From Candidatus Effluviviaceae Genus V sp. (GTDB lineage Bacteria; Joyebacterota; Joyebacteria; Joyebacterales; Joyebacteraceae), in contig WJMD01000052.1 in assembly GCA_014728125.1 (NCBI GenBank), positions 1-47,728 of the forward strand: a stretch of DNA of 47,728 nucleotides, written 5' to 3'. The notes under the pieces are model-generated. The model did not search any database, was not told the DNA's origin, and saw nothing but the letters and a program-made list of their open reading frames with translations. The position numbers and the translations under genes are program-made. This document shows positions 8,272 through 46,344 of the stretch, in pieces. The first letter of the stretch is position 1; each line of letters opens with the position of its first letter.

Positions 8272-8372
8272 CCTCTTCCCTCCGGGATCGGTACACGCCT
8301 CGTGCCGTTCGCGGGTCTGCACGTTGTCTGACGCGCGGCGGGGCCGTCGCGTTCAACGCCCCCGCTCTCTTC

Positions 8373-8400
8373 ATTGTAGCGCGCGCCGGCGGCTCTTCAA
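8373..8400 (-). promoter_or_regulatory. Sigma70-type promoter for the DUF4159 operon
   Basis: Minus strand: -35 TTGAAG (8395-8400), 16-base spacer, -10 TACAAT (8373-8378). It gives a leader of roughly 95 bases before the ATG at 8271 and lies just downstream of the secF terminator, which makes an independent operon likely. Confidence 0.62.
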
Positions 8401-8412
8401 GCCCACGGCCTC

Positions 8413-8450
8413 AAAACAGACGCGGCGCCCCGGAGACAGGACGCCGCGTC
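8413..8450 (-). terminator. Intrinsic terminator of secD-secF
   Basis: On the minus strand a perfect 9-bp stem GACGCGGCG / CGCCGCGTC (8442-8450 with 8419-8427), 14-base loop, followed by TGTTTTG (U tract at 8413-8416). It starts 24 bases after the secF stop codon. Confidence 0.87.
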
Positions 8451-8473
8451 GGTTCTCATCGATGGTCCGACGA

Positions 8474-9379
8474 CTACCGCTTCCTCCGGCGCCTCGCGTC
8501 CTGAGCGATCTGCCACTCGACGACCAGCGGGCTCGCCACGTAGATCGACGAGTACGTACCGATGATGACGCCGACCATCAGCGCGAACGCGAAGTCGCGG
8601 ATGACCTCGCCGCCGAAGATGAAGAGACAGAGGACCACGAGGAGCGTCGTCAGGGACGTCACGAGCGTTCTCGAGAGCGACTCGTTCAGGCTCGTGTTGA
8701 CGATCTCGACGAAGCTCCGACCGTACAGCTTCCTCTTGTCCTCGCGGATGCGGTCGTAGATGACGATCGTGTCGTTCAGTGAGTAGCCGACGATCGTGAG
8801 AAGCGCCGCAACGACCGGCAGTGTGATCTCGAATCCCGTCATCGAGAAGATGCCGAGCGTGATGAGCACGTCGTGGACGAGCGCCGCCACGGCACCCACC
8901 GCGAATCTGAACTCGAAGCGGATCGAGATGTAGATGAGGATGCCGATGAGCGCGTAGATGATCGCCTGCGTCGCCTTCGACTGGAGTTCCTTTCCCACCT
9001 TCGGACCGACGAGTTCCTCGCGCCGCACTTCTGCGTTGTTGTCGGGGTTCTCGGCGTTGAGAGCTTCGACGATCTGCGACGTCAGGTCGACGTCGTCCTC
9101 CTCGCTGACGCGGATGATCGCCTCCCGGTCGTTGCCGAAATGCTGGATCTCGGCCCCGCCCAGCCCGATGCCGGCGAGCGTGTCACGGATCCGCTCGGCC
9201 TCGATCGGCTTCTCGAAGCGGACCTGCAGGAGGATGCCGCCCTGGAAGTCGATGCCGAGCTTCGGGCCGCCCTGAACGAGCAGCGAGACGACGCCCACGC
9301 CGATCAGGATCAGCGAGAAGATGAAGGCGGCCCGCCTGTGCCCGAGGAAGTTGATGTGGGTGTCCTTGACAAACTCCAT
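8474..9379 (-). CDS. secF: Protein translocase subunit SecF
   Basis: A 301-residue inner-membrane protein of the SecDF complex, which uses the proton gradient to pull exported proteins through SecYEG. Visible: TM1 (about 18-36), the family motif G-I-D-F-Q-G-G (42-48), a small periplasmic domain, then five more membrane segments with G-Y-S-L-N-D-T-I-V-I-Y-D-R-I-R-E-D in TM4 and the closing V-E-W-Q. Length is normal. The ATG at 9379 has AAGGAGG five bases upstream; the GTG six codons earlier overlaps this ribosome site and is less likely. It lies 51 bases after secD with a small G+C hairpin between (9401-9421), and is followed by an intrinsic terminator. Confidence 0.97.
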   Translation of the reverse strand: MEFVKDTHINFLGHRRAAFIFSLILIGVGVVSLLVQGGPKLGIDFQGGILLQVRFEKPIEAERIRDTLAGIGLGGAEIQHFGNDREAIIRVSEEDDVDLTSQIVEALNAENPDNNAEVRREELVGPKVGKELQSKATQAIIYALIGILIYISIRFEFRFAVGAVAALVHDVLITLGIFSMTGFEITLPVVAALLTIVGYSLNDTIVIYDRIREDKRKLYGRSFVEIVNTSLNESLSRTLVTSLTTLLVVLCLFIFGGEVIRDFAFALMVGVIIGTYSSIYVASPLVVEWQIAQDARRRRKR

Positions 9380-9430
9380 CGTGCCTCCTTGCGCCACGAC
9401 CCGGGGCTCACGCGTCCCCGGCGGCCGGGA

Positions 9431-11071
9431 CTAGATACTCAGGCGCTTCACGTTCCGGCTGAGCGTCACGAGGTCGAACACGACGCGGGTCGCCACGATC
9501 GCTGTGAACATGCTGGCGAGAATGCCCAGCGAGAGCGTTACCGCGAAACCCTTGACGGGGCCCGTGCCGAACTGAAGGAGCACGGCCGCCGCGATGAGCG
9601 TCGTGACATTGGCGTCGAGAATCGTCGTGAAGGCCCGCTCGTAACCGTCCCTGATGGCGGCGCGGACCGTCTTCTGGTTTCGGATCTCCTCGCGGATGCG
9701 CTCGAAGATGAGGACATTGGCGTCGACCGCCATTCCGATCGTCAGGATGATGCCCGCGAGGCCCGGCAGCGTCAGCGCCGGCTTCGGGCTCACGGGGAGC
9801 GACGACATCAGGGCGACGACCACGAGGATGTTGATCGCGAGCGCCCCGATGGCCACCAGACCGGACGCACGGTAGTAGAGCAGCATGAACAGGACCACGA
9901 GGATGCCGCCGATCAACATCGCGCGAACGCCGAGGGTGATCGAGTCACGTCCCAGCGACGGACCGACCGTCCTCTCCTCGACGACCGTCATCGGCGCCGG
10001 CAGCCGGCCGGCGCGGAGCACGATGGACAGGTCCTTCGCCTGTGCGTCGGTGAACGTCCCGGTGATCGAGGCGGGGGTGCCGGCGGGGATCCTGTCGCGG
10101 ATCACGGGCGCCGACTGCACGACGCCGTCGAGCACCATCGCGAGGTACTCGCCGACGTGCTCTCCGGTGTAGTCGGCGAAGATGCGGCCGCCGCTCCGCG
10201 AAAGGCGGAGCTGGACACCGGGCGAGTTCGGGTAGTCGGGATCGAGCCCTGGCCTGACCTCGGCGGAGACGACGACAGAGCCTGTCATGATCGCCTCGTC
10301 CTCGAGGAGGTAGAACGCGCGGTACTCCTTCCCGTCCTGCATCGTCCGGGTCTCGTTGTCCCAGGCGATCCTGACGCGCGGGACGCCGGGCTGCCCCTCC
10401 TTGTGCGGCAGAATCTCGTCGAGGTCGAGGCGTTCGAGCTGCTCCCTGACCCAGGGGACATCCTCCTCGGCGAAGTAGGGGATGTCGCCCGGCAGGATTG
10501 CCTTCGCCGTCACGGGACGCTCGCGCGCCGCCTGCTCCGCCTCGGAGAGAACCAGCTCGTCCTCCTCGGGCAGCTCGCCGTGCGCCCTCATGGTGTCCAC
10601 GAGCGCACGGTCGATGGCGCGGAAGGCCAGGTCGTACACGTCGGGCGTCGCCACGGGCACGAACTCGAGGAGCGCGGTCTTGCCGATGAGCCGCTTGGCC
10701 CGCTGTTCGTCCCGGAGCCCGGGCAGCTGGACGATGATCCTGTTCTCGCCCTCCCGCTGGATGGACGGCTCGGCCACACCGAACTCGTCGATGCGGTTGT
10801 TGATCACCTCGAGGGCGCGGTCCATCACGTCCCTGGCCTCGTCGGCCGGGAGCCCCTCCTTGTCCACCTCCAGAACGAGGTGCATTCCACCCTTGAGGTC
10901 CAGGCCGAGACGCAGCGACCGCGCCTCGAGTTCCTCGACCGTCTCGGCCGGCATCGCGGCCTTCTGCTCCTCATCGAGCGATAGATAACGGAAGGTGTAC
11001 GAGGCCCGCCACGCCGACAGGACGACGACGATGAGAACGAGCAGTACCTTCCACCGCAGGTTTGACGTCAT
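9431..11071 (-). CDS. secD: Protein translocase subunit SecD
   Basis: A 546-residue partner of SecF. Visible: TM1 at residues 8-28, the motif L-G-L-D-L-K-G-G-M-H-L-V-L-E-V (about 54-68), the N-N-R-I-D-E-F-G-V-A-E-P motif of the P1 base, a long periplasmic P1 region, then five TM segments with G-M-A-V-D-A-N-V-L-I-F-E-R-I-R-E-E (TM4, near residues 440-456), which holds the conserved Asp needed for proton coupling. The ATG at 11071 has GGAGG at a good distance. No yajC homologue is next to it, unlike the common yajC-secD-secF order; the gene is first in its transcript. Confidence 0.97.
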   Translation of the reverse strand: MTSNLRWKVLLVLIVVVLSAWRASYTFRYLSLDEEQKAAMPAETVEELEARSLRLGLDLKGGMHLVLEVDKEGLPADEARDVMDRALEVINNRIDEFGVAEPSIQREGENRIIVQLPGLRDEQRAKRLIGKTALLEFVPVATPDVYDLAFRAIDRALVDTMRAHGELPEEDELVLSEAEQAARERPVTAKAILPGDIPYFAEEDVPWVREQLERLDLDEILPHKEGQPGVPRVRIAWDNETRTMQDGKEYRAFYLLEDEAIMTGSVVVSAEVRPGLDPDYPNSPGVQLRLSRSGGRIFADYTGEHVGEYLAMVLDGVVQSAPVIRDRIPAGTPASITGTFTDAQAKDLSIVLRAGRLPAPMTVVEERTVGPSLGRDSITLGVRAMLIGGILVVLFMLLYYRASGLVAIGALAINILVVVALMSSLPVSPKPALTLPGLAGIILTIGMAVDANVLIFERIREEIRNQKTVRAAIRDGYERAFTTILDANVTTLIAAAVLLQFGTGPVKGFAVTLSLGILASMFTAIVATRVVFDLVTLSRNVKRLSI

Positions 11072-11388
11072 GAACTACCTCCGCGGGACAGCCACGGGTC
11101 CGGGCTCACGTAGGCCGGGAGCGGCTCGAAGTGCGTATCAAACATAACACCCGATGATACTTGTTTCTACCGCCGGCGGTCAACGGGAAAGCCCCTTTTC
11201 GCCGAGCCGGCGGGCGCCTCACTCACGATCGCCCACAGCTTCTCAGGGGCCGCGTCATCGACCGACAGGCCCGCGTCGCGGGCCGTGCGCGGATTTCCGG
11301 CCGCCCCTTTCCCCTTGCCCGGCTCCCCGCCGAGGGCCTACCCTCGGAGGGACATCGTTTTCCAACAGTGGAAAGGAGCCGGAGCGGC
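11072..11388. other. Gene-free divergent region between secD and the methyltransferase
   Basis: 317 bases without a convincing gene. They hold the candidate secD promoter, a perfect inverted repeat GGCCCGCG-T-CGCGGGCC (11268-11284) and a perfect 7-bp hairpin CCGAGGG-CCTA-CCCTCGG (11330-11347) just before the ribosome site AAAGGAG of the methyltransferase. A frame continues upstream of 11389 as far as 11161, but its composition is proline/arginine-rich shadow-like and I do not accept it as coding. Confidence 0.6.
11141..11169 (-). promoter_or_regulatory. Candidate secD promoter
   Basis: Minus strand: -35 TAGAAA (11164-11169), 17-base spacer, -10 TATGTT (11141-11146) preceded by TGT (extended -10). 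It is in the only A+T-rich patch near this gene, about 70 bases upstream of the secD ATG. The -35 is weak (4 of 6 consensus bases). Confidence 0.42.
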
Positions 11389-12054
11389 GTGTCACACGAG
11401 TGGTCGAACTACTGGCAGGACGCACGAAACCTCAGGTGGTCGATCGTCGACCAGATCGTCTTGGACCGCGTGGCCACCGTCCTCGGATGGGGACCTGACC
11501 GGACGCTGCTCGAGCTCGGCGCGGGGCGCGGCCTCCACAGCCACCGTCTGTTCGAGCTGATGCGGTGCGAGAGACCCGACCTCTACGAAGTGAACCCGGA
11601 GATGCTCCGCTACATGGAGCGAATGGGGTTCAACGCCATCGGTGACGACGCCGACCTCAAGCACGAGTACGACATCGTCTGGTCGTACGGCGTCCCCGAG
11701 CACTTCGAGGAACCGATGCGGCAGGAGATCATCGACCGCCACTTCGAGCTCTCGCGGGACTGGGTCCTTCTGGTCATCCCGAGGAAGACGTGGCTGAGAC
11801 GGAGCGTGGCGCGGACCGACCGCATTCCTGCGCGCGACTTCACCGACGAGGAGCTGCGCGACAGGCTTAAGCGGGGCGCGGAGCGCCACTGGAAGAAAGG
11901 GGCCTCAGTCGTCGTGGTCGAGCACTTCTGCCCGCTCTTCGGCATCCGCCACATCGACGACAGCCTGTTCCCGGTGGTGGAGGCCCTGACGGGATGGGCC
12001 CTCCCGGGCGGCCTTCTCATCGGCTGGGGCAGACGAGAGGCCGGCGGCGACTAG
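11389..12054 (+). CDS. Class I SAM-dependent methyltransferase-like protein
   Basis: A 221-residue protein. Motif I reads L-L-E-L-G-A-G-R-G-L-H-S (about residues 37-48), the glycine-rich SAM-binding loop of class I methyltransferases. D-I-V-W-S-Y-G-V-P-E-H-F fits motif IV/post-IV, and L-V-I-P-R-K-T-W-L-R matches the later strand. The opening S-H-E-W-S-N-Y-W-Q-D-A-R-N-L-R-W is not one I can link to a named subfamily. Start: the GTG at 11389 has AAAGGAG about 11 bases upstream; no earlier start gives plausible protein. It stands alone on the plus strand between minus-strand operons, converging with pdxJ. The substrate is unknown; a small molecule or lipid is as likely as protein. Confidence 0.72.
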   Translation: MSHEWSNYWQDARNLRWSIVDQIVLDRVATVLGWGPDRTLLELGAGRGLHSHRLFELMRCERPDLYEVNPEMLRYMERMGFNAIGDDADLKHEYDIVWSYGVPEHFEEPMRQEIIDRHFELSRDWVLLVIPRKTWLRRSVARTDRIPARDFTDEELRDRLKRGAERHWKKGASVVVVEHFCPLFGIRHIDDSLFPVVEALTGWALPGGLLIGWGRREAGGD

Positions 12055-12108
12055 ACCCGCGCTCCGGTCCGCCACAGCGGGGCACTCGCCGCCGCTCCAC
12101 GGCCGGCC

Positions 12109-12825
12109 CTACGCGACATCGAGCAGCGCCAGCATCTCCCGGACCGCGAGGTCGATGCCGACCATGACGGCCCGTGCGATGATGCTGTGCCCGATGCTGA
12201 CCTCACTGATCTCCGGGATCGCCGCCACGGGGGCCGCGTTGAGATACGTCAGCCCGTGCCCGCCGTGCACATCGAGTCCCATCTCCCGGGCGGCACCGAC
12301 CGCGACACGGATCCTCTCGAGTTCCCTCTCGGCCGCGCCGGGATCCCCGGCGTCGGCGTAGAGACCCGTGTGGATCTCAACGATGTCGGCGCCGACCGCC
12401 TTCGCGCGTTCGACCTGCACGACGTCCGGATCGACGAACAGGCTGACGGCGACACCGGCCTCCCTGAGTGACGACGCGGCCCGCCGCACGTCCTTCTCTT
12501 CGGCCATGACGTCGAGACCGCCCTGCGTCGTCAGCTCCCCCTCGCCCTCGGGAACGAGGGTCACCATGTCCGGCAGCACGCCGAGTGCGACACCGAGCAG
12601 CTCCTCGGTCGCCTTCATCTCCAGGTTGAAAACGCCCGCGACCGTCTGCTTCAGGACCTCGACGTCCCTGTCCTGGATATGGCGGCGGTCTCCCCGCAGA
12701 TGGACCGTGATCCCGGAAGCTCCGGCCAGCTCCGCCTGCGATGCCGCCCACACGGGGTCCGGCTCGTCGGCGCCCCGGGCCTGCCGGATGGTCGCCACGT
12801 GATCGACATTGACGGACAGCCGCAT
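12109..12825 (-). CDS. pdxJ: Pyridoxine 5'-phosphate synthase PdxJ
   Basis: A 238-residue TIM-barrel enzyme that condenses 3-amino-2-oxopropyl phosphate with 1-deoxyxylulose 5-phosphate to give pyridoxine 5'-phosphate, the last ring-closing step of DXP-dependent vitamin B6 synthesis. Seen: the N-terminal L-S-V-N-V-D-H-V-A-T-I-R-Q-A-R-G signature, I-T-V-H-L-R-G-D-R-R-H-I-Q-D-R-D, F-N-L-E-M-K-A-T, the catalytic-region E-I-H-T-G-L-Y-A-D, and H-G-G-H-G-L-T-Y-L-N. Length is normal. The ATG at 12825 has GGAGG six bases upstream. It follows the polysaccharide deacetylase gene by ten bases. The preceding pathway enzyme PdxA is encoded at 24050-25099. Confidence 0.97.
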   Translation of the reverse strand: MRLSVNVDHVATIRQARGADEPDPVWAASQAELAGASGITVHLRGDRRHIQDRDVEVLKQTVAGVFNLEMKATEELLGVALGVLPDMVTLVPEGEGELTTQGGLDVMAEEKDVRRAASSLREAGVAVSLFVDPDVVQVERAKAVGADIVEIHTGLYADAGDPGAAERELERIRVAVGAAREMGLDVHGGHGLTYLNAAPVAAIPEISEVSIGHSIIARAVMVGIDLAVREMLALLDVA

Positions 12826-36021: not shown

Positions 36022-37026
36022 CTAGCGCGCCTCGGCGATCAGGCGCTCGACGATGTCGCTCGACGAGACGCCCTCGGCCTCGGCGTTGAAGTTCGTGACG
36101 ATCCGGTGCCTCAGGACCGGCAGCGCGACGTTCCGCACGTCCTCGGTCTCAGGGGCGTACCGCCCCTCGAGGACTGCCCGCGTCTTGGCCCCGAGAACGA
36201 GATACTGGGACGCCCGCGGGCCCGCTCCCCAACTGACCCAGTTCCGGACGTACTCCGGAGCCGACTCCTCGGGCCTCGTCATCCTGGCCAGGCCGACCGC
36301 GTACTCCAGCACATGATCGGGGACCGGCACGCGACGAACGAGCCCCTGCAGACGAATGATCTCGTCGGCGCCCAGGACCTTCTCGAGGTCCGGGGCGTAG
36401 GCGCTCGTCGTCGTCTCGACGATCTCCCGCTCCTCGGCCTCGCTCGGATATCCGACCGTGACCATGAACATGAAGCGGTCGAGCTGCGCCTCCGGGAGCG
36501 GGTACGTCCCCTCGAGCTCGATGGGGTTCTGTGTGGCGAGCACGAAGAACGGGAGCTCCAGCCGGTGCGTCGTCCCGCCGGCCGTGACCTCCTTCTCCTG
36601 CATTGCCTGCAGGAGCGCCGCCTGCGTCTTCGGAGGCGTCCTGTTGATCTCATCGGCCAGCACGACGTTCGCGAAGACGGGCCCCTGGATGAACTTGAAG
36701 CTCCGCGCGTGGGAGACCGGATCCTCCTCGATGATGTCGGTCCCCGTGATGTCCGACGGCATGAGGTCCGGCGTGAACTGGATGCGCTTGAAAGAGAGGT
36801 CGAGCACGTTCGCCAGCGTCGAGACCATGAGGGTCTTCGCGAGGCCGGGCACGCCGACCAGAAGACAGTGACCGTTGGCGAGGATGGCGATCAGGAGTTC
36901 CTCGATCACGCGGTCCTGCCCCACGATGACCTTGCGGATCTCCTGCTGGATCGCTGCCCTCGCCCTGGCCAGCGACTCGATGGCGGCCACGTCGCCGCTT
37001 CCGCCCCGGGTACCGTCATTCGTCAT
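36022..37026 (-). CDS. moxR: MoxR-family AAA+ ATPase
   Basis: 334 residues. V-I-V-G-Q-D (34-38), Walker A G-V-P-G-L-A-K-T (58-65), D-L-M-P-S-D-I-T-G, Walker B V-V-L-A-D-E-I-N-R (121-129), sensor 1 L-A-T-Q-N-P (163-168), E-G-T-Y-P-L-P-E-A-Q-L-D-R-F arginine-finger region and a C-terminal lid with G-A-G-P-R-A-S-Q. MoxR ATPases act as chaperones that activate or insert cofactors in VWA-partner complexes. ATG at 37026 with GGAGG four bases upstream. First gene of the operon; a candidate promoter at 37208-37236 would give a leader of about 175 bases with a strong G+C fold. Confidence 0.95.
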   Translation of the reverse strand: MTNDGTRGGSGDVAAIESLARARAAIQQEIRKVIVGQDRVIEELLIAILANGHCLLVGVPGLAKTLMVSTLANVLDLSFKRIQFTPDLMPSDITGTDIIEEDPVSHARSFKFIQGPVFANVVLADEINRTPPKTQAALLQAMQEKEVTAGGTTHRLELPFFVLATQNPIELEGTYPLPEAQLDRFMFMVTVGYPSEAEEREIVETTTSAYAPDLEKVLGADEIIRLQGLVRRVPVPDHVLEYAVGLARMTRPEESAPEYVRNWVSWGAGPRASQYLVLGAKTRAVLEGRYAPETEDVRNVALPVLRHRIVTNFNAEAEGVSSSDIVERLIAEAR

Positions 37027-37114
37027 GGGACCTCCAGATGCATCGGTCCGGTGGTGTTCGGTCGGCGCGGGGGGCAGCCCTCGGGCACCGACCGGTCGGG
37101 AAATAGACCTATCC

Positions 37115-37152
37115 GCCGCGCCGGGACCCCGCGAGGTCCCCTGCGCCGCGGC
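37115..37152 (-). promoter_or_regulatory. Folded leader of the moxR operon
   Basis: Inner stem GGGACC / GGTCCC (37123-37128 with 37135-37140) and outer stem GCCGCG / CGCGGC (37115-37120 with 37147-37152) form a two-tier hairpin in the predicted untranslated leader, about 90 bases before the moxR ATG. No U tract, so not an intrinsic terminator by itself. Confidence 0.4.
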
Positions 37153-37207
37153 TTCATGCGGCTGTCGCAAACGCCCGCGCCTCTATCGACACGGGCGACA
37201 CCGAGAC

Positions 37208-37236
37208 AGTTTAGCAGGGTGGCGCGCGGACGGCAA
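37208..37236 (-). promoter_or_regulatory. Candidate promoter of the moxR-to-pdxA operon
   Basis: Minus strand: -35 TTGCCG (37231-37236), 17-base spacer, -10 TAAACT (37208-37213). Each box matches 4 of 6 consensus bases; no better pair is seen in the divergent region. Confidence 0.48.
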
Positions 37237-37304
37237 GGAACGCGGCGACTCCCCACGGCCCGGCCCACCAGAGGCGTCGCATGCAATCACCCCGCCACCA
37301 TGTG

Positions 37305-37310
37305 TATACT
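37305..37310 (+). promoter_or_regulatory. Candidate -10 box for the M28 peptidase gene
   Basis: TATACT, placed so that transcription would begin near 37317 and give a very short leader with GGAGG at 37320-37324 before the GTG at 37330. The -35 region (TGCAAT) is poor. Confidence 0.32.
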
Positions 37311-37329
37311 GGGTCCCGTGGAGGTACCC

Positions 37330-40300
37330 GTGCTGCCCATGCTTCTGGCGATCATGATCGCTCTGCCGGCGCCCGGCGGCGCCCAGGCGCAGGCTCTGCC
37401 CGACGAGGCCCCGCTCGCCCATGTCCTCGGCCGTCACTCATCGACGGACAACGGTCCGACGGGCTTCCATGGAGCCGGCGCGTTGTCGCGGACCTTCCAC
37501 CCGACAACACTCGAACCCTCCGATCTCCGCCTGCCCGACGCGTCCACGCTCCAGGCCCTCGTCGACTCGACGAGCGAGGCGCGCATCCGGGAGACGATGG
37601 CGCGGCTCGAGCGCTTCGGGACCCGCTACGTCGTCACCGACTCGTGCCTTGCGTCGGCGCGCTGGATCGTTGAGCGTTTCGAAGCGATGGATGTCTACGA
37701 CGTCCGCGTCGACACGTTCCGTACCTGGACCTGGCAGGACTCCGTCGATGCGTGGAACGTGATCGCGGTCCGGCGCGGATCCACGCGGCCCGACGAACAC
37801 GTGATCCTCGGGGGACACTACGACTCCGTTTCGTTCGAGAGCCTCTCCGATCCCTGGGCGCCGGCACCCGGGGCCGACGACAACGCCTCGGGCGTGGCCG
37901 CGGTCCTCGAGGCCGCCCGAACGCTCGCCCGCTACGAGACCGAGCGCACGCTCGTCTTCGCGTGCTGGTCCGCAGAGGAGGAGGGGCTGTGGGGCAGCCG
38001 GGACTACGTCGCCCGCGCCGTCGACGAGAGCCTCGACATCGTCCTCTACCTGAACCTCGACGCCATCGGCTACAACGCTGTCGGCGACCCTGACGGCATC
38101 GTCTACGCGGACTCCGTCTCATACGCCGTCGCGGCGCTCGCCGCCGACATCGCGGCCGACCAGCTCGACCTCGACTACACGGCGGTCGAGCAGCCCATCG
38201 GGGCGAGCGACCAGAACAGCTTCGCCGAGCGCGGCTACCGCGTCCTCGACACGAGCAGCAACCCGCTCTACTCGCCGTATCACCACTCGGCGAACGACCT
38301 CCTGGAACACGTCGACACGGGGATCGTTCGGGAGATCACGGCCATCAACACGGCCGTCCTCGCGTCGGTCGCGTTCCTTGCCGGCCACAATGAGAACCTG
38401 CCGCCGGAGACCCGGCTCCACGCGACGTGCGCCGCCGTCCGCGAGACGGTCTGCACGTCGCCCACGTTCTCCTGGACCGGCGTCGACTTCGACGGCACTG
38501 TCAGCGGTTATGCGCTCGACGTCCTCTCGATCGGTCATCCGAACGGACGCACATCCGCAAGGGAGGAGATCCTCGGACCCGACGTATCAGAGGTGACGCT
38601 CTCGCTCGAACCCGGCAGCTACGTGTTCACGCTGGCCGCGATCGACGACGACGGTGGCCGGGACCCGTCCGCAGCCCGCCATCTCTTCACGGCCACGGAC
38701 GCCGTCGCACCCGAGGTCGTGATATCGACCGACTTCCTGCGCGACACTCTCGCCTTCACCGGACTCCCGGGGCGGCTGACCGACCCCGTGCCGGTCTTCG
38801 TCGGCGAGCGGCTGTCGCTCTCGGTGGCGGTCGACGCGTCCGCGTACTGCGGCTCTGCCGATCGGGCGGCCGTCTCTCTCATGCCGGGGACGCCGAACTC
38901 GTTCACCGAGACGCCCTTCGAGACCACTCTCCGCCCGACGGCCGCCGACACCGCGATCTACGTCGTCGCGCACGAACCGGGCTGTGACAGGAGCGCGGCG
39001 TGGATACCGCTCGACCCGGCGCCTGCGACGTTCGACCGCGGGATACTGCATGTCGATGACTGGATCGGTGGCGGAGTCGACGAGAGCGCCCACGACGGCT
39101 TCTACGCGCGCATCGTCGACGACGCGGAGGAGTGGGACCCGTACGAGCACATCGTCGAGGGATCGCCCACACTCCCCTCCAGAGAGATCATCGGTCGCTA
39201 CGGTACCGTGATCTGGACGCTCGCACGCGGCGGCGGGCTCATGCGACAGGCGCACGCGGGAGACGGATGGCGCCTCGCCGAGGGCTACGTCCGGGCCGGC
39301 GGGAACCTCGTCGTCGAGGGGCAGTCGGCGGCCGCGACGCTCTCCGGTCTCGAGCCGCTCGACCTGCTCTCGACCACGCCCCAAGGCTCCTTCCTTCGGA
39401 CCCGGGCAGGCGTCGAGAGCGTCGCGACGACGGGGAGCGCGGTCGCCCCTCCGGCCTACGGCTACGCCTTCCTGGGCGGCCTCCCCGCTGCGACCGGCCT
39501 GCCGCCGCTCCCGGTCGACACGCTCGGCACGTGGGCCGACGGCTACCAGAGCTTCGGCGGTCTCCCCTGGTGCGAGATCTACCGTCCCGGGCCCGAGACT
39601 GATCGACTGTATCTCTTCGACGCCTACCGCAACGACGCCTTCGACGAACGTCCGTGCGCGCTCCTGACACGCTCGACCGACGGCGCGGGCTCCGTCGTCA
39701 TCATGGGATTCCCGCTCTACTACATCAGAGAGGCGAACGCCCGCGAGGCCCTCGGGATGGTCATCGACGCGCTCGAGTCGTGGCAAGAGCCGTCGGAGCT
39801 CTCGTACTTCTCGCACGAAGCCACGACGGATTCCGTCGTTCTCGCGTGGTACCTCGACCCCGTCGAGGGACCGGCCTTCTGTCGACTTGAGCGAACCCTG
39901 GCGGGTCACGACTATCACACTGTCGCCGACTCCGTGACCCCGGACGAGACAGGCCGCTATCGCGTCGTCGATGCGCCGCCGCCCGGCTCGAGCCCCCGCT
40001 ACCGTCTGATCGTGACGGAGCGGTCGGGCGTCGTCGTGACGCACGGTCCCTGGGAGGTCCCCGTGCCGCTCCCCGCCCCCGACGACGGGCTCTCCATGTC
40101 GAGCGCCCTGCCGTCCCGCGGCGCGGTCGACTTCGACTACAGTGTCGGCGACGATCATCGATGGATCCGCCTGACCATCCACGACGTGGCGGGGAGACTC
40201 GTGTCCGTGGTCGAGGAAGGGCACCGGGACGCCGGCCGCTACGAGGCACAGTGGGACGGAAGGTCCGACGGCGGAACCCGCGCCGCGTCCGGCGTCTACT

Positions 40301-40359
40301 TCGCGCGCCTGGCCGTCGGGCGATCCTCGGTCACGTGCAAGCTCGTGCTGCTGAGATGA
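37330..40359 (+). CDS. Secreted M28-family zinc metallopeptidase with Ig-like C-terminal modules
   Basis: 1009 residues. Signal peptide 1-22 (L-L-A-I-M-I-A-L-P-A). The M28 catalytic domain (about 85-350) has all metal residues: G-G-H-Y-D-S-V (His163), G-A-D-D-N-A-S-G (Asp183), E-E-E-G-L-W-G-S (Glu217 catalytic, Glu218 ligand), L-N-L-D-A-I-G (Asp244), Y-H-H-S-A-N-D (His319). It is probably an aminopeptidase. After it: an FnIII-like module (W-T-G-V-D-F-D-G, about 382), a GATase-like region (about 560-790), and an FlgD-type Ig-like C-terminus (W-D-G-R-S-D-G-G-T-R-A-A-S-G-V-Y, then V-T-C-K-L-V-L-L-R). The GTG at 37330 has GGAGG five bases upstream; the ATG at 37300 lies before the -10 box and is less likely. 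Monocistronic on the plus strand. Confidence 0.92.
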   Translation: MLPMLLAIMIALPAPGGAQAQALPDEAPLAHVLGRHSSTDNGPTGFHGAGALSRTFHPTTLEPSDLRLPDASTLQALVDSTSEARIRETMARLERFGTRYVVTDSCLASARWIVERFEAMDVYDVRVDTFRTWTWQDSVDAWNVIAVRRGSTRPDEHVILGGHYDSVSFESLSDPWAPAPGADDNASGVAAVLEAARTLARYETERTLVFACWSAEEEGLWGSRDYVARAVDESLDIVLYLNLDAIGYNAVGDPDGIVYADSVSYAVAALAADIAADQLDLDYTAVEQPIGASDQNSFAERGYRVLDTSSNPLYSPYHHSANDLLEHVDTGIVREITAINTAVLASVAFLAGHNENLPPETRLHATCAAVRETVCTSPTFSWTGVDFDGTVSGYALDVLSIGHPNGRTSAREEILGPDVSEVTLSLEPGSYVFTLAAIDDDGGRDPSAARHLFTATDAVAPEVVISTDFLRDTLAFTGLPGRLTDPVPVFVGERLSLSVAVDASAYCGSADRAAVSLMPGTPNSFTETPFETTLRPTAADTAIYVVAHEPGCDRSAAWIPLDPAPATFDRGILHVDDWIGGGVDESAHDGFYARIVDDAEEWDPYEHIVEGSPTLPSREIIGRYGTVIWTLARGGGLMRQAHAGDGWRLAEGYVRAGGNLVVEGQSAAATLSGLEPLDLLSTTPQGSFLRTRAGVESVATTGSAVAPPAYGYAFLGGLPAATGLPPLPVDTLGTWADGYQSFGGLPWCEIYRPGPETDRLYLFDAYRNDAFDERPCALLTRSTDGAGSVVIMGFPLYYIREANAREALGMVIDALESWQEPSELSYFSHEATTDSVVLAWYLDPVEGPAFCRLERTLAGHDYHTVADSVTPDETGRYRVVDAPPPGSSPRYRLIVTERSGVVVTHGPWEVPVPLPAPDDGLSMSSALPSRGAVDFDYSVGDDHRWIRLTIHDVAGRLVSVVEEGHRDAGRYEAQWDGRSDGGTRAASGVYFARLAVGRSSVTCKLVLLR

Positions 40360-40401
40360 CCGTGCGCCGCCGGAACCGACACCGGGGGTGAGCGGGCCCG
40401 A

Positions 40402-40431
40402 TTGACGGCCGCGCGCGGCGGCTGGTATAGT
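40402..40431 (+). promoter_or_regulatory. Strong sigma70-type promoter for the DUF364/decarboxylase operon
   Basis: -35 TTGACG (40402-40407), 18-base spacer, -10 TATAGT (40426-40431) with extended -10 TGG. Predicted start about 40438, leaving a leader of about 70 bases. Confidence 0.85.
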
Positions 40432-40440
40432 CGCACGAAG

Positions 40441-40487
40441 GCCCGCGCGGACGCTGTCCCGACCGACGACCGGGAACCTGCGCGGGC
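40441..40487 (+). promoter_or_regulatory. Structured 5' leader hairpin
   Basis: Outer stem GCCCGCGC / GCGCGGGC (40441-40448 with 40480-40487), asymmetric internal loop, inner stem TCCCG / CGGGA (40457-40461 with 40471-40475) with a 9-base loop. It fills almost the whole predicted leader, and the ribosome site AGAGGAGG (40497-40504) starts ten bases later. I recognise no known riboswitch class. Confidence 0.5.
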
Positions 40488-40508
40488 TGTGTGTTCAGAG
40501 GAGGACGC

Positions 40509-41309
40509 GTGGACTGCCTGAAGGAGCTCAGGGAGATCGGGATCAGGAAGAGCCGCGACTACCCCGACGAGGCCTTCCGGGTCAGGGGCCTGTGGCGGAC
40601 CGAGCTGCTCTTTCGCCCGAACCCGGGCGAGCGGACGTTCAACTACACGTATCTCCTCGTCCAGACGGTCGGCGAGGGTGCCTGCTACTGCTCGAGGATC
40701 CCTCCGCTCGAGGAGGGGCAGGAGCTTCTCGGCAAGGACGCCCGCGAGGTCTCGACCCGCTATCGCTGCTTCGACGTGGCGACGACCGACGCCATGTTCT
40801 CGGCCTTCGAGAAGCACCCCGATGAGACGAAGACGATGACCGGCTCGTCGGCCGAGAAGGCGATATGGCGAAGCCGGATCGTCGTCGAGGAGGTCCTCCG
40901 CCTGCTGGAGGCGGACGACGCGAGCCGAGTCGTGAACGTCGGCGTCATCGGCAACATCATCAGGAACCTGAAGGACCGCGGACTCGACGTGGTCGGGACG
41001 GACGGGGATCCGAAGCTGGTCGGCTGCGAGATCGACGGGGTCCCCATCCTCGGAATGGAGCGCACGCTCGAGTTTGTCGAGGAGTACGACGTCGCCGTCA
41101 TGACGGGAATGGTCATCTCCACGGAGACGATGCAGGACATATTCGATGCGGCGAGACGCGGCGGCACGAGACTGGTGATGTTCTGCGAGACGGGCGCCAA
41201 CCTGTGCGAGGAGTACGTCAAGCTCGGCGTCGACACGGCGATCGCGGAGCCCTTCCCCTTCTACATCTTCGGGGGCACGACGCGGATCGACATCTACAGA
41301 AAGGCCTGA
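40509..41309 (+). CDS. DUF364 (DUF4213-like N-terminus) Rossmann-like protein
   Basis: A 266-residue cytoplasmic protein. The GTG at 40509 has GAGGAGG four bases upstream. The N-terminal half (about 1-125) has V-G-E-G-A-C-Y-C-S-R-I and a helix with T-T-D-A-M-F-S-A that fits the DUF4213 enolase-N-like pattern. The C-terminal half has V-V-N-V-G-V-I-G-N-I-I-R-N-L (about 135-148), V-V-G-T-D-G-D-P, Y-D-V-A-V-M-T-G-M-V-I-S-T-E-T-M and L-V-M-F-C-E-T-G-A, matching the Rossmann-like DUF364 ('putative heavy-metal chelation') pattern. No reaction is known for the family. First gene of a three-gene operon with a PLP decarboxylase, which suggests small-molecule biosynthesis. Several Cys residues may matter for metal. 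Assignment is from motif memory only. Confidence 0.62.
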   Translation: MDCLKELREIGIRKSRDYPDEAFRVRGLWRTELLFRPNPGERTFNYTYLLVQTVGEGACYCSRIPPLEEGQELLGKDAREVSTRYRCFDVATTDAMFSAFEKHPDETKTMTGSSAEKAIWRSRIVVEEVLRLLEADDASRVVNVGVIGNIIRNLKDRGLDVVGTDGDPKLVGCEIDGVPILGMERTLEFVEEYDVAVMTGMVISTETMQDIFDAARRGGTRLVMFCETGANLCEEYVKLGVDTAIAEPFPFYIFGGTTRIDIYRKA

Positions 41310-41329
41310 CCGGACAGAGGGAGGACACA

Positions 41330-42628
41330 CTGCTTCGTACATTCGAACAGAGCGGCGGGGTGCTCGAGATCGGCGGGGTGCCGGTCACCGAGATCGCGGC
41401 GGAATACGGGACGCCGCTCTACATCTACGACGCCGGGCTCGTGCGGGACCGCTACATGGCCCTGCGCGAGGCGATGCCGGCCTTCGAGGTCTTCTTCTCG
41501 ATGAAGGCCAACCCCTCCCTCTCGCTCATCGGCTTCCTGCGCACACTCGGGGCGGGCGCGGAGATCGCCTCCGGCGGCGAGCTCTTTCTGGCCGGCGAGG
41601 CGGGGTACGACCCGCTCGACATCGTCTTCGCCGGTCCGGGCAAGACCGACCGCGAGCTGGAGGAGTCGGTGCTCGCAGGCGTCTACGCCATCAACGTCGA
41701 GACGCTGAGGGAGCTCTCGCGGCTCGGCCGCATCGCGAAGCTCCTGAGCCTCCCCGCGCGAGCGGCGCTTCGCGTCAACACGTCGAAGGGCCTCTCCAGG
41801 TCCGGCGACGGCTCGGCGGGGCCGCTCCACGAGCAGATGGCCGGCGGGCCGAGCAAGTTCGGGATCGACGAGGAGAAGCTCGAGGCCCTCGACGACGCCT
41901 GGGACCGTTCAGCCGTCGAGATCGTCGGGGTCCACGTCTACACGGCCAGCCAGATCCTCCACGAGGACGAGATCCTGGCGAACGCGAAGCGGACGCTCGA
42001 GGCGACGGTCCGCGTCGAGGAGGCCGTCGGTGCTCCCGTGACCTCGATCGACTTCGGCGGAGGATTCGGCGTGCCGCACTACGAGGACGAGGAGGAGCTC
42101 GACCTCGAGACGCTCGGTCGCGGCCTGGAGGAGGTCTTCGCCCCGTTCCTTGAAAGGGAGGACGCGCGCCTCATTCTCGAGCTCGGGCGGTACCTCACGT
42201 CGGACGCCGGAGTCTACCTCACGAGGGTCGTCGAGCTGAAGGAGTCCCGAGGCGAGCGGTACGTGATCACCGACGGCGGCATCAACCAGTTCGTACGGCC
42301 GGTACTGATGCGTGTCGACCACGAGGCGGCGGTCGTCAACAAGCTCGACCGCGCACCGTCGCTGACTGCGCACATCACGGGGCCGCTCTGCACCCCGATC
42401 GATGTGACCGCCAGAGAGGTGGACGTGCCGGAGAGCATCGCCATCGACGACCTCGTCGGCATCATGAACGCCGGATCGTACGGCTTCTCGATGAGTCCTC
42501 AGCTCTTCCTGTCACACCCCACCCCGGCGGAGGTGCTCGTACTGGACGGGGAGCTCATCGAGGCGCGTTCGCGCGGCACCTACGAAGACCTGCTCATCAA
42601 GCAGAAGCGATTTCCCGGAACGGTGTAG
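41330..42628 (+). CDS. Type III fold PLP-dependent decarboxylase (BtrK/exosortase-associated type, not canonical LysA)
   Basis: 432 residues if started at a CTG at 41330, which has GGGAGG five bases upstream; the next candidate is a GTG at 41360 without a good ribosome site. Alanine racemase-like barrel plus C-terminal beta domain: F-F-S-M-K-A-N (PLP Lys59), V-H-V-Y-T-A-S-Q (His202), D-F-G-G-G-F-G-V-P-H (241-250), L-E-L-G-R-Y-L (283-289), G-P-L-C-T-P-I-D (Cys354), A-G-S-Y-G-F-S-M-S-P. Diaminopimelate decarboxylase normally has E-P-G-R and C-E-S-G/S-D at the last motifs; E-L-G-R-Y-L and C-T-P-I-D match, from memory, the BtrK/TIGR03099 group acting on carrier-bound or unusual amino acids. The substrate is unknown; LysA remains an alternative. 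Confidence 0.82.
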   Translation: MLRTFEQSGGVLEIGGVPVTEIAAEYGTPLYIYDAGLVRDRYMALREAMPAFEVFFSMKANPSLSLIGFLRTLGAGAEIASGGELFLAGEAGYDPLDIVFAGPGKTDRELEESVLAGVYAINVETLRELSRLGRIAKLLSLPARAALRVNTSKGLSRSGDGSAGPLHEQMAGGPSKFGIDEEKLEALDDAWDRSAVEIVGVHVYTASQILHEDEILANAKRTLEATVRVEEAVGAPVTSIDFGGGFGVPHYEDEEELDLETLGRGLEEVFAPFLEREDARLILELGRYLTSDAGVYLTRVVELKESRGERYVITDGGINQFVRPVLMRVDHEAAVVNKLDRAPSLTAHITGPLCTPIDVTAREVDVPESIAIDDLVGIMNAGSYGFSMSPQLFLSHPTPAEVLVLDGELIEARSRGTYEDLLIKQKRFPGTV

Positions 42629-42648
42629 TTGAGCCGCGGAGGCAACCG

Positions 42649-43401
42649 ATGCTCTATCGCGTCACAGCGATCACCCTGCTGCTCGTCGCGTTCGGGGCGG
42701 GGGGCTGCTCGGACGACATCACATGCCCCGACGCGGACGATGCGGCGGCCCGTCCCTCGATCAGGGCGTTCGTCAGACAGACGACCCTTGGGTCGCCCGC
42801 GACGACTGCGACAATCACGGTCGGAGCCGATCCCGTACCGTCCCTCCTCATTGCATCGGTGAACTACCGCGACTTCGGCGAGCCGGAGCTCATCGACGGC
42901 CCGCTGCTCCGGGCCACGATGGAGGAAGAGCAGGTCGTCTGGCAGCCGGGGACGCCGTGCACGCTCCGGGTCTCGACCGACAGCGGCTTCGCCCGTGCGC
43001 CGGCGGTCGTGCCCGAGGCCGCCTCGGTCTCGGCGCCCGCGACGGTCAGCCTCGGCGACTCGCTCGCACTGCACTGGAGCCTGTCCGCCGACGCCGACTA
43101 CTACGCGGTCAGAGCGGTCGTGCGCTCCGGGCCGGACTCGCTCGTCATCGAGACGACGACGGTCGACACGTCGCTCGTCATCGCCGCTCAGGACCTGTCC
43201 ATGACGGGAGAGCTGGCCGGCGTGGTCTCCGCCGTCTCGGGTCCGCTTCCCGCGCAGGGAAGCTCCGGGAACGTGACCGGTGAGGGGTGGGGGTTCTTCT
43301 CGGTGAGCTACGAGACGGGCGATTCGTCCTTCGAGGTCGAGGTCGTCGGATCCTCCCGCATCGCCTGGTCCTACGGCGCCGGGGCCCTTCCGCTCAGATA
43401 G
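42649..43401 (+). CDS. Putative lipoprotein, unknown function
   Basis: A 250-residue protein. ATG at 42649 with GGAGG six bases upstream, 20 bases after the decarboxylase stop, so probably cotranscribed. The signal peptide ends in the lipobox Ala-Gly-Gly-Cys (about residue 20). The body is strand-rich (T-A-T-I-T-V, L-A-L-H-W-S-L-S, Y-Y-A-V-R-A-V-V), suggesting two Ig/FnIII-like beta-sandwiches, the second with the W-x-x-x-x-D-A-D-Y-Y-A-V pattern of FnIII domains. No family recognised. Its last 31 bases overlap the end of the convergent gene at 43371-44861. Confidence 0.72.
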   Translation: MLYRVTAITLLLVAFGAGGCSDDITCPDADDAAARPSIRAFVRQTTLGSPATTATITVGADPVPSLLIASVNYRDFGEPELIDGPLLRATMEEEQVVWQPGTPCTLRVSTDSGFARAPAVVPEAASVSAPATVSLGDSLALHWSLSADADYYAVRAVVRSGPDSLVIETTTVDTSLVIAAQDLSMTGELAGVVSAVSGPLPAQGSSGNVTGEGWGFFSVSYETGDSSFEVEVVGSSRIAWSYGAGALPLR

Positions 43402-44861
43402 ACGCCGAGGAGCCTGCCGGCCTCCTTGAGGACGAGCACCTCGGCCTCGCGGCGCCCGCGGTCGACCGTCTCCTCCACGAAGATCTCAGACGCACCCAGC
43501 ATCCCGGCCGTGTTCTGGTCGACCGCCTCGGCCTCGAGGAGCACCCTCGCCGTCCAGCCGACTTCCTTCTCGACCGTCGAGAGCGATAGCCGTGCCGTCA
43601 CGAGGATGTCGGTCGCCGGTCCGCACGGGACGAGCTCGTAGCCGTCCGGCGCGAGACGTTGCTCGAGCCCGGACCGGACCTGTGTCGCATCGGCCGGACC
43701 CGTGCCGGATACGTCGAGGCAGACGGAGAGCCCGTGTCCGGGCTCGATGATGTAGACCCGCGCGGTCGTCTCCTGTACCGCGCCCCGCCAGTGAGCCCCG
43801 GCGGCCGCGAGCGCCGCTGTGTCGATGCTCGTCGTCACGGTGTAGCCGCCCGGAGGGCTCCAGACACGACGGATCGTGAGGCCGGCCCGACCGTCCTTGT
43901 CGGTCGCGGCGTCCGCGACGACGATGCCCGTCATGCCGTGCGAGAAGCCGACGGGGACGCCGACGGCCGGGACGGTGCGCCCGTCCAGCTCGAACGACCA
44001 GCGGAACGACACGCGCTCGTCGGCGCGGGAGCCCCGCGGCACGGCCGCCATCGTCTGCTCGGACCGGACTTCAAGCGGCGGCACGACCGTGATCGTCTCG
44101 ACGCGCTCCCCGATCTCCCAGCCCGCGCCGCCTGCGGGGCGCGCTCCTGCGGCGAGCAGTGCGGCCCGAGCCCGACCGGCGTCGAGCGCGGCCTCGGTCC
44201 AGCGCCCCTCATCCAGATAACGGTCGGCCGACGACGACAGGACGCGCGCCTCGCGTGCGAGCCGTCTCCTCTCCCACACGGCGTTCGACACGTCGCCTCT
44301 GAGAAGCGCGATGGGGTACTCGACGAGAGCGGCTGCTCTGTACGTGGATGACTCTGGGTGTGCGTCGCGAAGACAGCGCTCGACGCGGAGGGCCTTGAAG
44401 CTGATCCTGGGGAACTGCGCGGAGCCCGTGGAGGCCAGCTCCTCGGTGGCGCGGTCCGCGGAGGCCCCTTCGGGAGCACGGGGAACACCCCGGGCCGCGA
44501 GCTGCTCGCCGGCGACGGCGACCGCGCGGGCGGCAGCGTCGCGAACGGCAGACTCCTGATCAGGCGCTCCCGACCGGGGGTCGTCGAACGACGACGAGGT
44601 CACGACGGCCGTCAACACACCCCCCGCGGACGACCATCCATTGCCGCGGTCGGGCCACGTTGCGTGCGGCTCGCCCTCGACGATCTCGCAGCGCCAGGCG
44701 GTCTCCGCGGGCACCTCCCGTTCATCCTGTCCGGACGTGTCCGGCTCCCCGGTCGCAGGGGGGCGCGCGCAGCCGCCGAGAATGGAGACCGCGACACACA
44801 CGGGAACTGCAGCCGCGAGGGTCTGCCGAAGTGCTCTGAGGCCGAACGTCGTGCGGTTCAT
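43371..44861 (-). CDS. LPP20-like lipoprotein, unknown function
   Basis: A 496-residue protein from the ATG at 44861 (an ATG three codons earlier is possible). The signal peptide ends in I-L-G-G-C (about residue 33), a good lipobox. Early in the mature part A-V-R-D-A-A-A-R-A-V-A-V-A-G-E-Q-L resembles the LPP20 helix of surface and flagellum-associated lipoproteins, followed by a long helix (W-E-R-R-R-L-A-R-E-A-R-V). The centre has Ig-like strands (V-S-F-R-W-S-F-E-L-D-G, G-Y-T-V-T-T-S-I-D), and the C-terminal part (about 380-496) has D-I-L-V-T-A-R-L-S-L and A-E-V-L-V-L-K-E-A-G-R. Assignment to LPP20 is tentative. It converges with the 42649-43401 gene, overlapping by 31 bases. Confidence 0.7.
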   Translation of the reverse strand: MNRTTFGLRALRQTLAAAVPVCVAVSILGGCARPPATGEPDTSGQDEREVPAETAWRCEIVEGEPHATWPDRGNGWSSAGGVLTAVVTSSSFDDPRSGAPDQESAVRDAAARAVAVAGEQLAARGVPRAPEGASADRATEELASTGSAQFPRISFKALRVERCLRDAHPESSTYRAAALVEYPIALLRGDVSNAVWERRRLAREARVLSSSADRYLDEGRWTEAALDAGRARAALLAAGARPAGGAGWEIGERVETITVVPPLEVRSEQTMAAVPRGSRADERVSFRWSFELDGRTVPAVGVPVGFSHGMTGIVVADAATDKDGRAGLTIRRVWSPPGGYTVTTSIDTAALAAAGAHWRGAVQETTARVYIIEPGHGLSVCLDVSGTGPADATQVRSGLEQRLAPDGYELVPCGPATDILVTARLSLSTVEKEVGWTARVLLEAEAVDQNTAGMLGASEIFVEETVDRGRREAEVLVLKEAGRLLGVYLSGRAPAP

Positions 44862-44868
44862 GCCGTCC

Positions 44869-44874
44869 ATCGTA
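44869..44874 (-). promoter_or_regulatory. Candidate extended -10 for the LPP20-like gene
   Basis: Minus strand TACGAT preceded by TGG. A start seven bases on would put the 5' end at or beside the ATG at 44861 (leaderless or nearly so). The -35 (CTGACG, 19-base spacer) is off-consensus. Confidence 0.25.
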
Positions 44875-44949
44875 CCACATGTCCGCAGGCCGGCGTCAGG
44901 GTCTCCGTCGCTGGACCGTCCTGTCGGTGAGGTCCGGGGGAACGTGAGC

Positions 44950-44975
44950 GAGCCGGCGGGGGCAGTCGCCGGCTC
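44950..44975 (-). terminator. Possible terminator hairpin after the REC-GGDEF-REC gene
   Basis: Stem GAGCCGGCG / CGCCGGCTC (44950-44958 with 44967-44975), about 70 bases past the stop. No U tract follows on the minus strand, so termination is uncertain. Confidence 0.35.
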
Positions 44976-45045
44976 GGGGATTCTCGGTCGTCCCGACGCG
45001 GTCACGGAGCGGGTGCGCGGCGGCACACCCGGTCCCGCGACTGCA

Positions 45046-46344
45046 TCAGGGACCGAGGTAGTTGGAAACGGCGGTGGCCAGATTGTTGGTGTCGATCGGC
45101 TTGGTGATATACCCGCGGCAGCCCGCCGCGACGAGCTGCTCGAGGTCCTCCGGGACATCTCTCGTGGTCAGTGCGACGATCGGGATGTTCTCCATCTCCT
45201 CGAGCTCGACCATCCGGCGGGTGGCCTCGAGTCCCCCCATGCCGTGGAGCTGCACGTCGATGATGACGAGATCCGGACGGGTCGCACGCGCCAGTGCCAC
45301 GGCCGTCACGCCGTCCCCCGCCTCGATGACCTCGTAGCCGCTCGAGCGCAGAACGAGCGAGGCAACGCTCCTGTTGTAGCTGTTGTCCTCCACGAGCAGG
45401 ATGCGCGCCATTGCACCGTGACGGTGCGCGTCCTCGCGGTCCTTCTCTTTGAACGCCACGACGCTCTTGTCCCCGCCGGCCTCCTTCGCCTGACAGAGCG
45501 CCGAGTCGGCCATCCGGACGAGTGTCTCCGCATCCCGCGCGTCGTCCGGATAGCACGCCGCACCGCAGCTCACGGTCGTAATGACGTCCTTTCCGTCAAT
45601 CCGGATGACGCACTCGGAGAAGGCGCCGCGCAGACGGTCCGAGAGGGCGGCCGCGTCACTCGAGCCGGTCTCGGGGAGAATCAGCGCGATCTCGTCGCCG
45701 CCGAAACGGCAGGCTATGTCCGAGAGACGCGTCCCGGAGAGCACGACGTCGGCCACCGCCTTGAGCACGGCATCGCCGCCGCGGTGGCCCGATCGCTTGT
45801 TCGTCTTCTTGAGTCCGTCGACATCGATCATGACGAGGGCCACCGACCTGGAGTACCGTCTGGCGCGCTCTACCTCTTTCTCCAGCCGCTTGTCGAAGTA
45901 ATGCCTGCTGTAGAGGCGCGTCAGATCGTCTCGCTGAGAGCTGTCGCCCTCGCTGGCGATCGAAGCAGAGACACGGAGGAGCGCCCGGACCTTGGTCAGG
46001 AACTCCCGGGGGCGCGTCGGATACGTGAAACACTCGATGGGACACGAGCCGGTGTGCTCCTGCTCGTCGCCGCCGAGCACCAGCACGGGAGGCTTCCATC
46101 GCCGTCCCATGTCGTCGACCCGCTCGAACGAGATGCCGCCCGTCGCGGGCCACGCATCGGCGTCGAGCACCACGAGATCCGCACCCTCCGAGACCGCGCG
46201 GGTGGTCAGGAGCTCGGGCTCATCGCACAGGATCGCGAGGTAGCCCGCATCCATCAGCCACCCGGCGAGCTTCCCCGCTCGCACGGGGTCGGTCGACGCG
46301 ACGAGGGTCGTGCTGCGGGTCTTGTGTGCCTCTCGTGGTGCCAT
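45046..46344 (-). CDS. REC-GGDEF-REC protein (diguanylate cyclase, hybrid)
   Basis: 432 residues. N-terminal receiver-like domain (about 12-125), degenerate: the phospho-Asp position reads L-V-V-L-D-A-D but the acidic pair and the Lys are missing. The GGDEF domain (about 137-300) has D-D-L-T-R-L-Y-S-R-H-Y-F-D, the active loop G-G-D-E-I (215-219; Ile for Phe) and an inhibitory-site motif R-L-S-D (206-209) five residues before it, so cyclic-di-GMP synthesis with product inhibition is plausible. The C-terminal receiver (about 313-432) is intact: V-E-D (318-320), phospho-Asp363 in V-I-I-D-V-Q-L, A-L-T-T, T-K-P (Lys415). ATG at 46344 with GGAGG five bases upstream. No histidine kinase gene is in the window. 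Confidence 0.92.
   Translation of the reverse strand: MAPREAHKTRSTTLVASTDPVRAGKLAGWLMDAGYLAILCDEPELLTTRAVSEGADLVVLDADAWPATGGISFERVDDMGRRWKPPVLVLGGDEQEHTGSCPIECFTYPTRPREFLTKVRALLRVSASIASEGDSSQRDDLTRLYSRHYFDKRLEKEVERARRYSRSVALVMIDVDGLKKTNKRSGHRGGDAVLKAVADVVLSGTRLSDIACRFGGDEIALILPETGSSDAAALSDRLRGAFSECVIRIDGKDVITTVSCGAACYPDDARDAETLVRMADSALCQAKEAGGDKSVVAFKEKDREDAHRHGAMARILLVEDNSYNRSVASLVLRSSGYEVIEAGDGVTAVALARATRPDLVIIDVQLHGMGGLEATRRMVELEEMENIPIVALTTRDVPEDLEQLVAAGCRGYITKPIDTNNLATAVSNYLGP

Follow-up and report, generated by a model that had tools for sequence, protein, structure and literature searches.

The stretch of DNA analyzed here (the window) comprises positions 1 to 47,728 of contig WJMD01000052.1 of Candidatus Effluviviaceae Genus V sp. 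(assembly GCA_014728125.1), a 2.5 Mb genome that is 97.6% complete; we take its phylum to be Candidatus Effluviviacota, a group of seep-dwelling bacteria (PMC11323493). Within the window lies an operon of three genes that encode, in this order, a DUF364-like protein, a fold-III pyridoxal 5'-phosphate (PLP)-dependent decarboxylase, and a predicted lipoprotein (Table 1). Because the pair formed by the first two genes recurs in two other phyla and a residue in the active site of the decarboxylase is changed, the pair likely belongs to a yet unknown small-molecule pathway.

A previous description of this DNA, made from the letters alone (hereafter, the sequence-only reading), had noted a strong promoter, a ribosome-binding site (RBS) at each gene, and gaps of 20 bases, and this layout is borne out: the operon is real, with a single promoter that is the only sigma-70-like site within positions 40200–43600 (mean of 0.1 in shuffled sequences), GGAGG-type sites at all three genes, and two intergenic gaps of exactly 20 bases each. 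A similar site (TTGAC[CGT] or TTGCCC, a spacer of 17 or 18 bases, and TATATT) is located 5' of the DUF364 gene in 14 of the 15 genomes compared, including the window, and was not found in the remaining one (G017); in two genomes lacking DUF364, a promoter-like site sits upstream of the decarboxylase gene instead. No riboswitch or other RNA was detected 5' of the operon in the window or in six related loci, with the exception of one tRNA, and the viral contigs that were searched contain no relatives.

Table 1 Features of the three-gene operon (positions in the window)
Feature	Positions	Strand	Basis
Sigma-70-type promoter, TTGACG-18-TATAGT	40402..40431	+	Equivalent sites in 13/14 relatives
RBS of DUF364-like gene, GGAGGA	40500..40505	+	Sequence
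DUF364-like protein P0001, 266 aa, GTG start	40509..41309	+	Pfam/profile matches, orthologs
RBS of decarboxylase gene, GGAGGA	41320..41325	+	Sequence, kept in relatives
CTG start codon of decarboxylase	41330..41332	+	Invariant in 20/20 phylum genomes
Fold-III (alanine-racemase-fold) PLP decarboxylase P0003, 432 aa	41330..42628	+	Profiles, motifs, tree
Codon of Lys59, predicted PLP Schiff-base lysine	41504..41506	+	Invariant alignment column
Codon of Arg287 (= Thermotoga LysA Arg249, distal carboxylate)	42188..42190	+	Alignment
Codon of Arg323 (= Thermotoga LysA Arg285, distal carboxylate), in NQFVRPVLM	42296..42298	+	Alignment
Codon of Thr355 (= Thermotoga LysA Glu315, distal amino group), in GPLCTPID	42392..42394	+	Alignment
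RBS of lipoprotein gene, GGAGG	42638..42642	+	Sequence
Predicted lipoprotein P0002, 250 aa, ATG start	42649..43401	+	Lipobox-like signal, orthologs

Conservation and decay of the DUF364–decarboxylase pair

Our sample of Effluviviacota consists of 20 genomes from eight genera of one family, and in 16 of these, an intact DUF364-like gene lies directly 5' of the decarboxylase gene in the same orientation; the orthologs show 70–75% identity for the DUF364-like protein and 65–69% for the decarboxylase. A profile search of 386 genomes for distant DUF364-like proteins yielded strong matches in two distant genomes, and in both, a decarboxylase with 38–40% identity is encoded beside the DUF364 gene or two genes away. 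Altogether, the pair is present in seven of the eight genomes of a second phylum and in two of the ten genomes of a third one. The sequence-only reading had allowed that the adjacency might be absent from all relatives; it recurs in them, so this doubt falls away. In the open-access literature, we found no description of DUF364 together with a decarboxylase; the pair is real, conserved, and apparently undescribed.

In the second phylum, a homologous alpha/beta hydrolase gene is located upstream in six of the seven pair loci (in the seventh, the frame at this position is truncated by the contig start), and in one of these genomes (G153), the hydrolase is assigned to the DUF1749 type by Pfam. 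A DUF1749 hydrolase also accompanies the pair in G285, one of the two third-phylum genomes that carry it, where the hydrolase lies, together with a 500-aa protein, between DUF364 and the decarboxylase. This cassette follows a tRNA gene at a distance of about 280 bases (locus L099; tRNA, 7507–7579; cassette, 7862–12403). Because of this location and the lack of the pair in eight of the ten genomes of its phylum, the pair, the hydrolase, and the 500-aa protein look like a unit that was gained laterally, possibly a mobile metabolic cassette.

The window DUF364-like protein scores 19.1 bits against Pfam PF04016, below the cut-off of 23. The relationship, which was already suggested in the sequence-only reading, is nevertheless supported by PF04016 matches in 12 of 12 members from the phylum (E < 1, the best 7e-8) and by the relatives from the other phyla, which exceed the cut-off (27.5 and 36.1 bits); furthermore, a profile of DUF364 proteins matches the DUF364 structure 3npg (E = 4.5e-4). 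The AlphaFold model of P0001 is confident mainly for residues 110–250, and the predicted local distance difference test (pLDDT) values are below 50 for residues 14–102, where an enolase-N-like N-terminal domain would be expected. Taken together, the model and the 3npg match predict a Rossmann-like C-terminal domain, and the N-terminal part, which includes a GxGxCYC-like region, lacks a Pfam match. The matches from a Foldseek search with the model, to fold-I PLP enzymes and Rex, were all weak (template modeling scores up to 0.38) and were not used. In the phylogenetic tree, the DUF364 partners of the decarboxylase form a clade (support 100/100) apart from the DUF364 proteins found in other contexts. 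In one such context, seen in Streptomyces, Rhodococcus and, partly, a third genome (L094, L097, L100), an actinobacterial-type cluster encodes DUF364 along with an ATP-grasp protein, a cysteine-synthase-like protein, a dipeptide epimerase, a major facilitator superfamily protein, and a methyltransferase; this cluster looks like a pathway for a small amino-acid-derived metabolite.

The association of the two genes breaks down in one genus, g6, where four genomes (L019, L020, L102, L103) have a decayed DUF364 gene or none, with recognizable remnants in three: one genome of the genus retains an intact gene, one carries a frame-shifting internal deletion, one preserves only the first and last residues, one has a weakly recognizable fragment, and in one, DUF364 is undetectable. 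Each single lesion could be an assembly error; the lesions differ among the genomes. The decarboxylase is kept in all five genomes, with its start codon and ribosome-binding site (two of the genes run into a contig end), and evolves under purifying selection, with ratios of nonsynonymous to synonymous substitution rates (dN/dS) of 0.04–0.10. Thus, the decarboxylase has a DUF364-independent role in this genus.

Unexpectedly, the start codon of the decarboxylase is CTG in all 20 Effluviviacota genomes, shortly past a GGAGG-type site. In most of the genomes, the stretch from the preceding stop codon to this CTG lacks an ATG, GTG, or TTG in frame, and candidates further downstream vary in position; the start of the window decarboxylase must be the CTG rather than one of these codons. 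Because the CTG is invariant whereas each of the 20 other invariant leucines of the decarboxylase is encoded by more than one codon (18 genomes) and the DUF364 start varies among GTG, TTG, and ATG, the codon comparison suggests that CTG probably is under selection as a start codon. Such a start would probably keep decarboxylase translation low or be tied to discrimination by initiation factors.

The third gene is a different matter. The lipoprotein carries a lipobox-like signal (AFGAGGC), and its downstream homologs in relatives have clearer lipoboxes (LLAGC, LVAGC). It is the third gene in those Effluviviacota loci with enough flanking sequence (37–46% identity), including those in genomes without DUF364, and is absent beside the pair in five loci tested from the other phyla. 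Being phylum-specific, it was rejected as a part of the core pair; the sequence-only reading, which had it acting together with the pair at the envelope, was premature on this point, as it was in suggesting a metal-binding product, and the lipoprotein would be an addition made in Effluviviacota. Further downstream, a convergent gene on the minus strand (43371–45158) overlaps the lipoprotein gene with its 3' end by about 31 bases (43371–43401). The neighbor upstream of the operon (36106–40359) codes for a protein with an M28 peptidase domain and, at the C-terminus, a FlgD-like immunoglobulin domain, and a long gene similar in kind occupies the same place in relatives.

Family placement and active site of the decarboxylase

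The motifs pointed out in the sequence-only reading, E-L-G-R-Y-L and C-T-P-[IL]-D, are present in the decarboxylase as ELGRYL and GPLCTPID. We placed the enzyme in a tree of 67 rows that included 18 DUF364-linked decarboxylases from three phyla and 24 LysA rows. The DUF364-linked enzymes form one clade (Shimodaira–Hasegawa-like approximate likelihood ratio test (SH-aLRT) support of 93), which is a sister to the BtrK/exosortase-type enzymes (SH-aLRT 99 for the joint branch), with the canonical LysA separate, in line with what the sequence-only reading had expected of such a phylogeny. The nearest solved structures by sequence, too, are those of BtrK (7ru7, 2j66), and the CTPxD motif is common to both groups. 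All this would fit an enzyme that decarboxylates a glutamyl group borne by an acyl carrier protein whose gene lies at another place in the genome. We nevertheless consider such chemistry highly doubtful and rejected it on the grounds of genomic context and motif. In none of the three phyla is the pair flanked by a carrier protein, AMP ligase, acyl-CoA ligase partner, or exosortase locus (exosortases elsewhere in the genome were not searched for), whereas among the plasmid-borne BtrK-type relatives that were examined, five (L095, L228–L231) have a carrier protein nearby and, in four of the five cases, an AMP ligase. In addition, the four-to-five-residue insert that takes the place of RPxxM in the BtrK-type enzymes shown is absent from the DUF364-linked ones, and the score against TIGR03099 (exosortase-associated decarboxylase), 348.3 bits, is below the cut-off of 478.45. 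The sequence-only reading thus was right that the enzyme is nearest to the BtrK/exosortase group and wrong in making it a member. Most of the third-phylum genomes (L204–L209, L187) encode a fold-III decarboxylase with a GPTCMPWD specificity loop, in which the Met after the catalytic Cys recalls FigC.

In LysA of Thermotoga, Arg249 and Arg285 bind the distal carboxylate of the substrate, and Glu315 binds the distal amine (PMC8277567; compare PMC7857480). The E315T mutant of Thermotoga maritima LysA lost most of the activity on diaminopimelate and gained the ability to decarboxylate D-2-aminopimelate (PMC8277567). In our alignment, every one of the 33 canonical LysA carries Arg, Arg, and Glu at the equivalent positions, and each of the 20 DUF364-linked decarboxylases checked carries Arg287, Arg323, and Thr355; the equivalent of Arg323 is missing in 13 of the 14 BtrK/exosortase-type enzymes. 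Judging by these residues, the DUF364-linked decarboxylases are a putative natural analog of the E315T mutant. Because the Arg, Arg, Thr pattern matches that of the mutant, the substrate may, with somewhat less than an even chance, be an alpha-amino-dicarboxylate or an N-blocked diaminopimelate, that is, a compound with a distal carboxylate and without a free distal amine.

The retention of both arginines also bears on a route similar to that of microcin C, whereby DUF364 would move a 3-amino-3-carboxypropyl group from S-adenosylmethionine (SAM) to an acceptor and the decarboxylase would trim it to aminopropyl, to give a polyamine-like or metal-binding product. MccE, a member of the wider decarboxylase family, performs such chemistry (PMC7857480), and the Rossmann part of DUF364 shows a weak similarity to SAM methyltransferases (4htf, 8joz, E = 0.008; MetW in one member). 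However, Rex/NAD and CoA-binding folds match as well, the substrate would have no obvious distal carboxylate for the two conserved arginines, and the decarboxylase survives the loss of DUF364, so that this route appears very unlikely.

Lysine biosynthesis and the proposed pathway

The main rival explanation is that the decarboxylase, having been recruited from the BtrK side of the family and changed at the distal site, serves as the meso-diaminopimelate decarboxylase of the phylum and makes lysine, and that DUF364 is an accessory. Indeed, no other full-length fold-III decarboxylase was found in any of the 20 Effluviviacota genomes, 13 of which have a completeness of 90% or more and a contamination of 5% or less; a second weak PF02784 match in the window genome, a frame of about 230 residues, has the length of a YggS-type protein. 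DapF and DapB are each present in 19 of the 20 genomes, DapA is present too, and all three were confirmed by NCBIfam cut-offs. The window decarboxylase scores 296.0 bits against TIGR01048 (lysA), just under the cut-off of 297.9, and the orthologs from the second and third phyla clear it (310.9 and 307.3), so automatic annotation would label some members LysA. The purifying selection in the genus without DUF364 and the two arginines fit this explanation as well. We regard it as possible but rather unlikely, given the Thr in place of the distal-amine Glu in 20 of 20 enzymes checked, a change that cost the Thermotoga enzyme most of its diaminopimelate activity, and the position outside the LysA clade. 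The co-absence of LysA is weak evidence of replacement and was not accepted as proof: by a rough count, close to half of the 386 bacterial genomes sampled have no LysA-like match, and neither the pair nor LysA is present in one genome of the second phylum, so lysine need not come by this route. When the sequence-only reading set lysine synthesis aside, it was correct about the tree; the dismissal itself goes too far because no other LysA-family gene is present in the genome. The paper describing Candidatus Effluviviacota does not mention lysine (PMC11323493). A gene for a KamA-family radical SAM aminomutase is located near dapA/dapB (L151:8161–9360, by NCBIfam; L153:13648–14811), and a similar KamA-type gene was spotted by eye near dapB in the window's own genome.

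The reading that we prefer, with a probability of about 0.45, is that of a non-standard decarboxylase with altered distal specificity in an old functional pair with the DUF364-like protein. The decarboxylase would remove the alpha-carboxylate from an alpha-amino acid that has a carboxylate at the far end and no free amine beside it, either a dicarboxylic amino acid resembling 2-aminopimelate or a diaminopimelate that is blocked at the distal amine. DUF364, a Rossmann-type enzyme from a metal-associated family, would act on the same or a neighboring compound and would not be required for decarboxylation because the decarboxylase outlives it in g6. The DUF1749-type hydrolase (in the second phylum and G285) might release or deacylate an intermediate. 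In a more specific version that we deem improbable, the substrate would be diaminopimelate with a blocked distal amine, in a murein-type peptide or another N-acyl form, such that lysine or a lysine-like amine would be made by a non-classical route, with DUF364 (joined in the other phyla by the DUF1749 hydrolase) handling the blocking group.

Several observations weigh against the preferred reading. The Thermotoga result comes from one point mutant in another background; in the window enzyme, a Pro follows Thr355 and neighboring residues differ (Met327, Phe393, His396), so that the actual pocket may be larger. A source of 2-aminopimelate was not identified. The support for the decarboxylase clade is 93, and its two third-phylum members are long branches. 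The loss of DUF364 in g6 with the decarboxylase kept weakens a strict two-step pathway, and a lysine role accounts equally well for the decarboxylase being the sole LysA-family enzyme in all 20 genomes, which have the diaminopimelate pathway. In any of these cases, the locus raises the question of how lysine is synthesized in a whole phylum that possesses the diaminopimelate pathway, and a subfamily that is found nearly always with one DUF364 clade provides a handle on the function of DUF364.

Comparison with known systems

Compared with BtrK, the L-glutamyl-[BtrI acyl-carrier protein] decarboxylase, and TIGR03099 enzymes, the window decarboxylase shares the fold, the catalytic residues, the CTPxD loop, and the F-x-S-H-P region, but keeps the arginine motif RPxxM where those enzymes have the insert, and its partner is DUF364 rather than a carrier protein and AMP ligase. 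With LysA (TIGR01048), it has in common the fold, both distal-carboxylate arginines, and a score that is within 2 bits of the cut-off; it differs in having Thr in place of the distal-amine Glu, Met instead of the Tyr of RPxLY, and Phe-x-x-His where LysA has Tyr-x-x-Arg, and the DUF364-linked enzymes form a separate clade with a distinct partner.

The DUF364 family (PF04016; Dhaf4260 3l5o, 3npg) shares with the window protein the Rossmann part, in which Gly and acidic positions are conserved; the window protein, however, belongs to a distinct clade that is tied to the decarboxylase and not to metal transporters. The proteins of the actinobacterial clusters belong to the same DUF364 superfamily, including the N-terminal half, but show only 19–24% identity, and no fold-III decarboxylase is present in those clusters. 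The closest parallel to the predicted specificity is Thermotoga maritima LysA E315T, which likewise has both distal arginines and, at position 315, a Thr. That enzyme is a laboratory mutant in a LysA background, whereas here, a coherent subfamily of alanine-racemase-fold decarboxylases appears to carry a natural version of the engineered specificity switch, fixed in three phyla.

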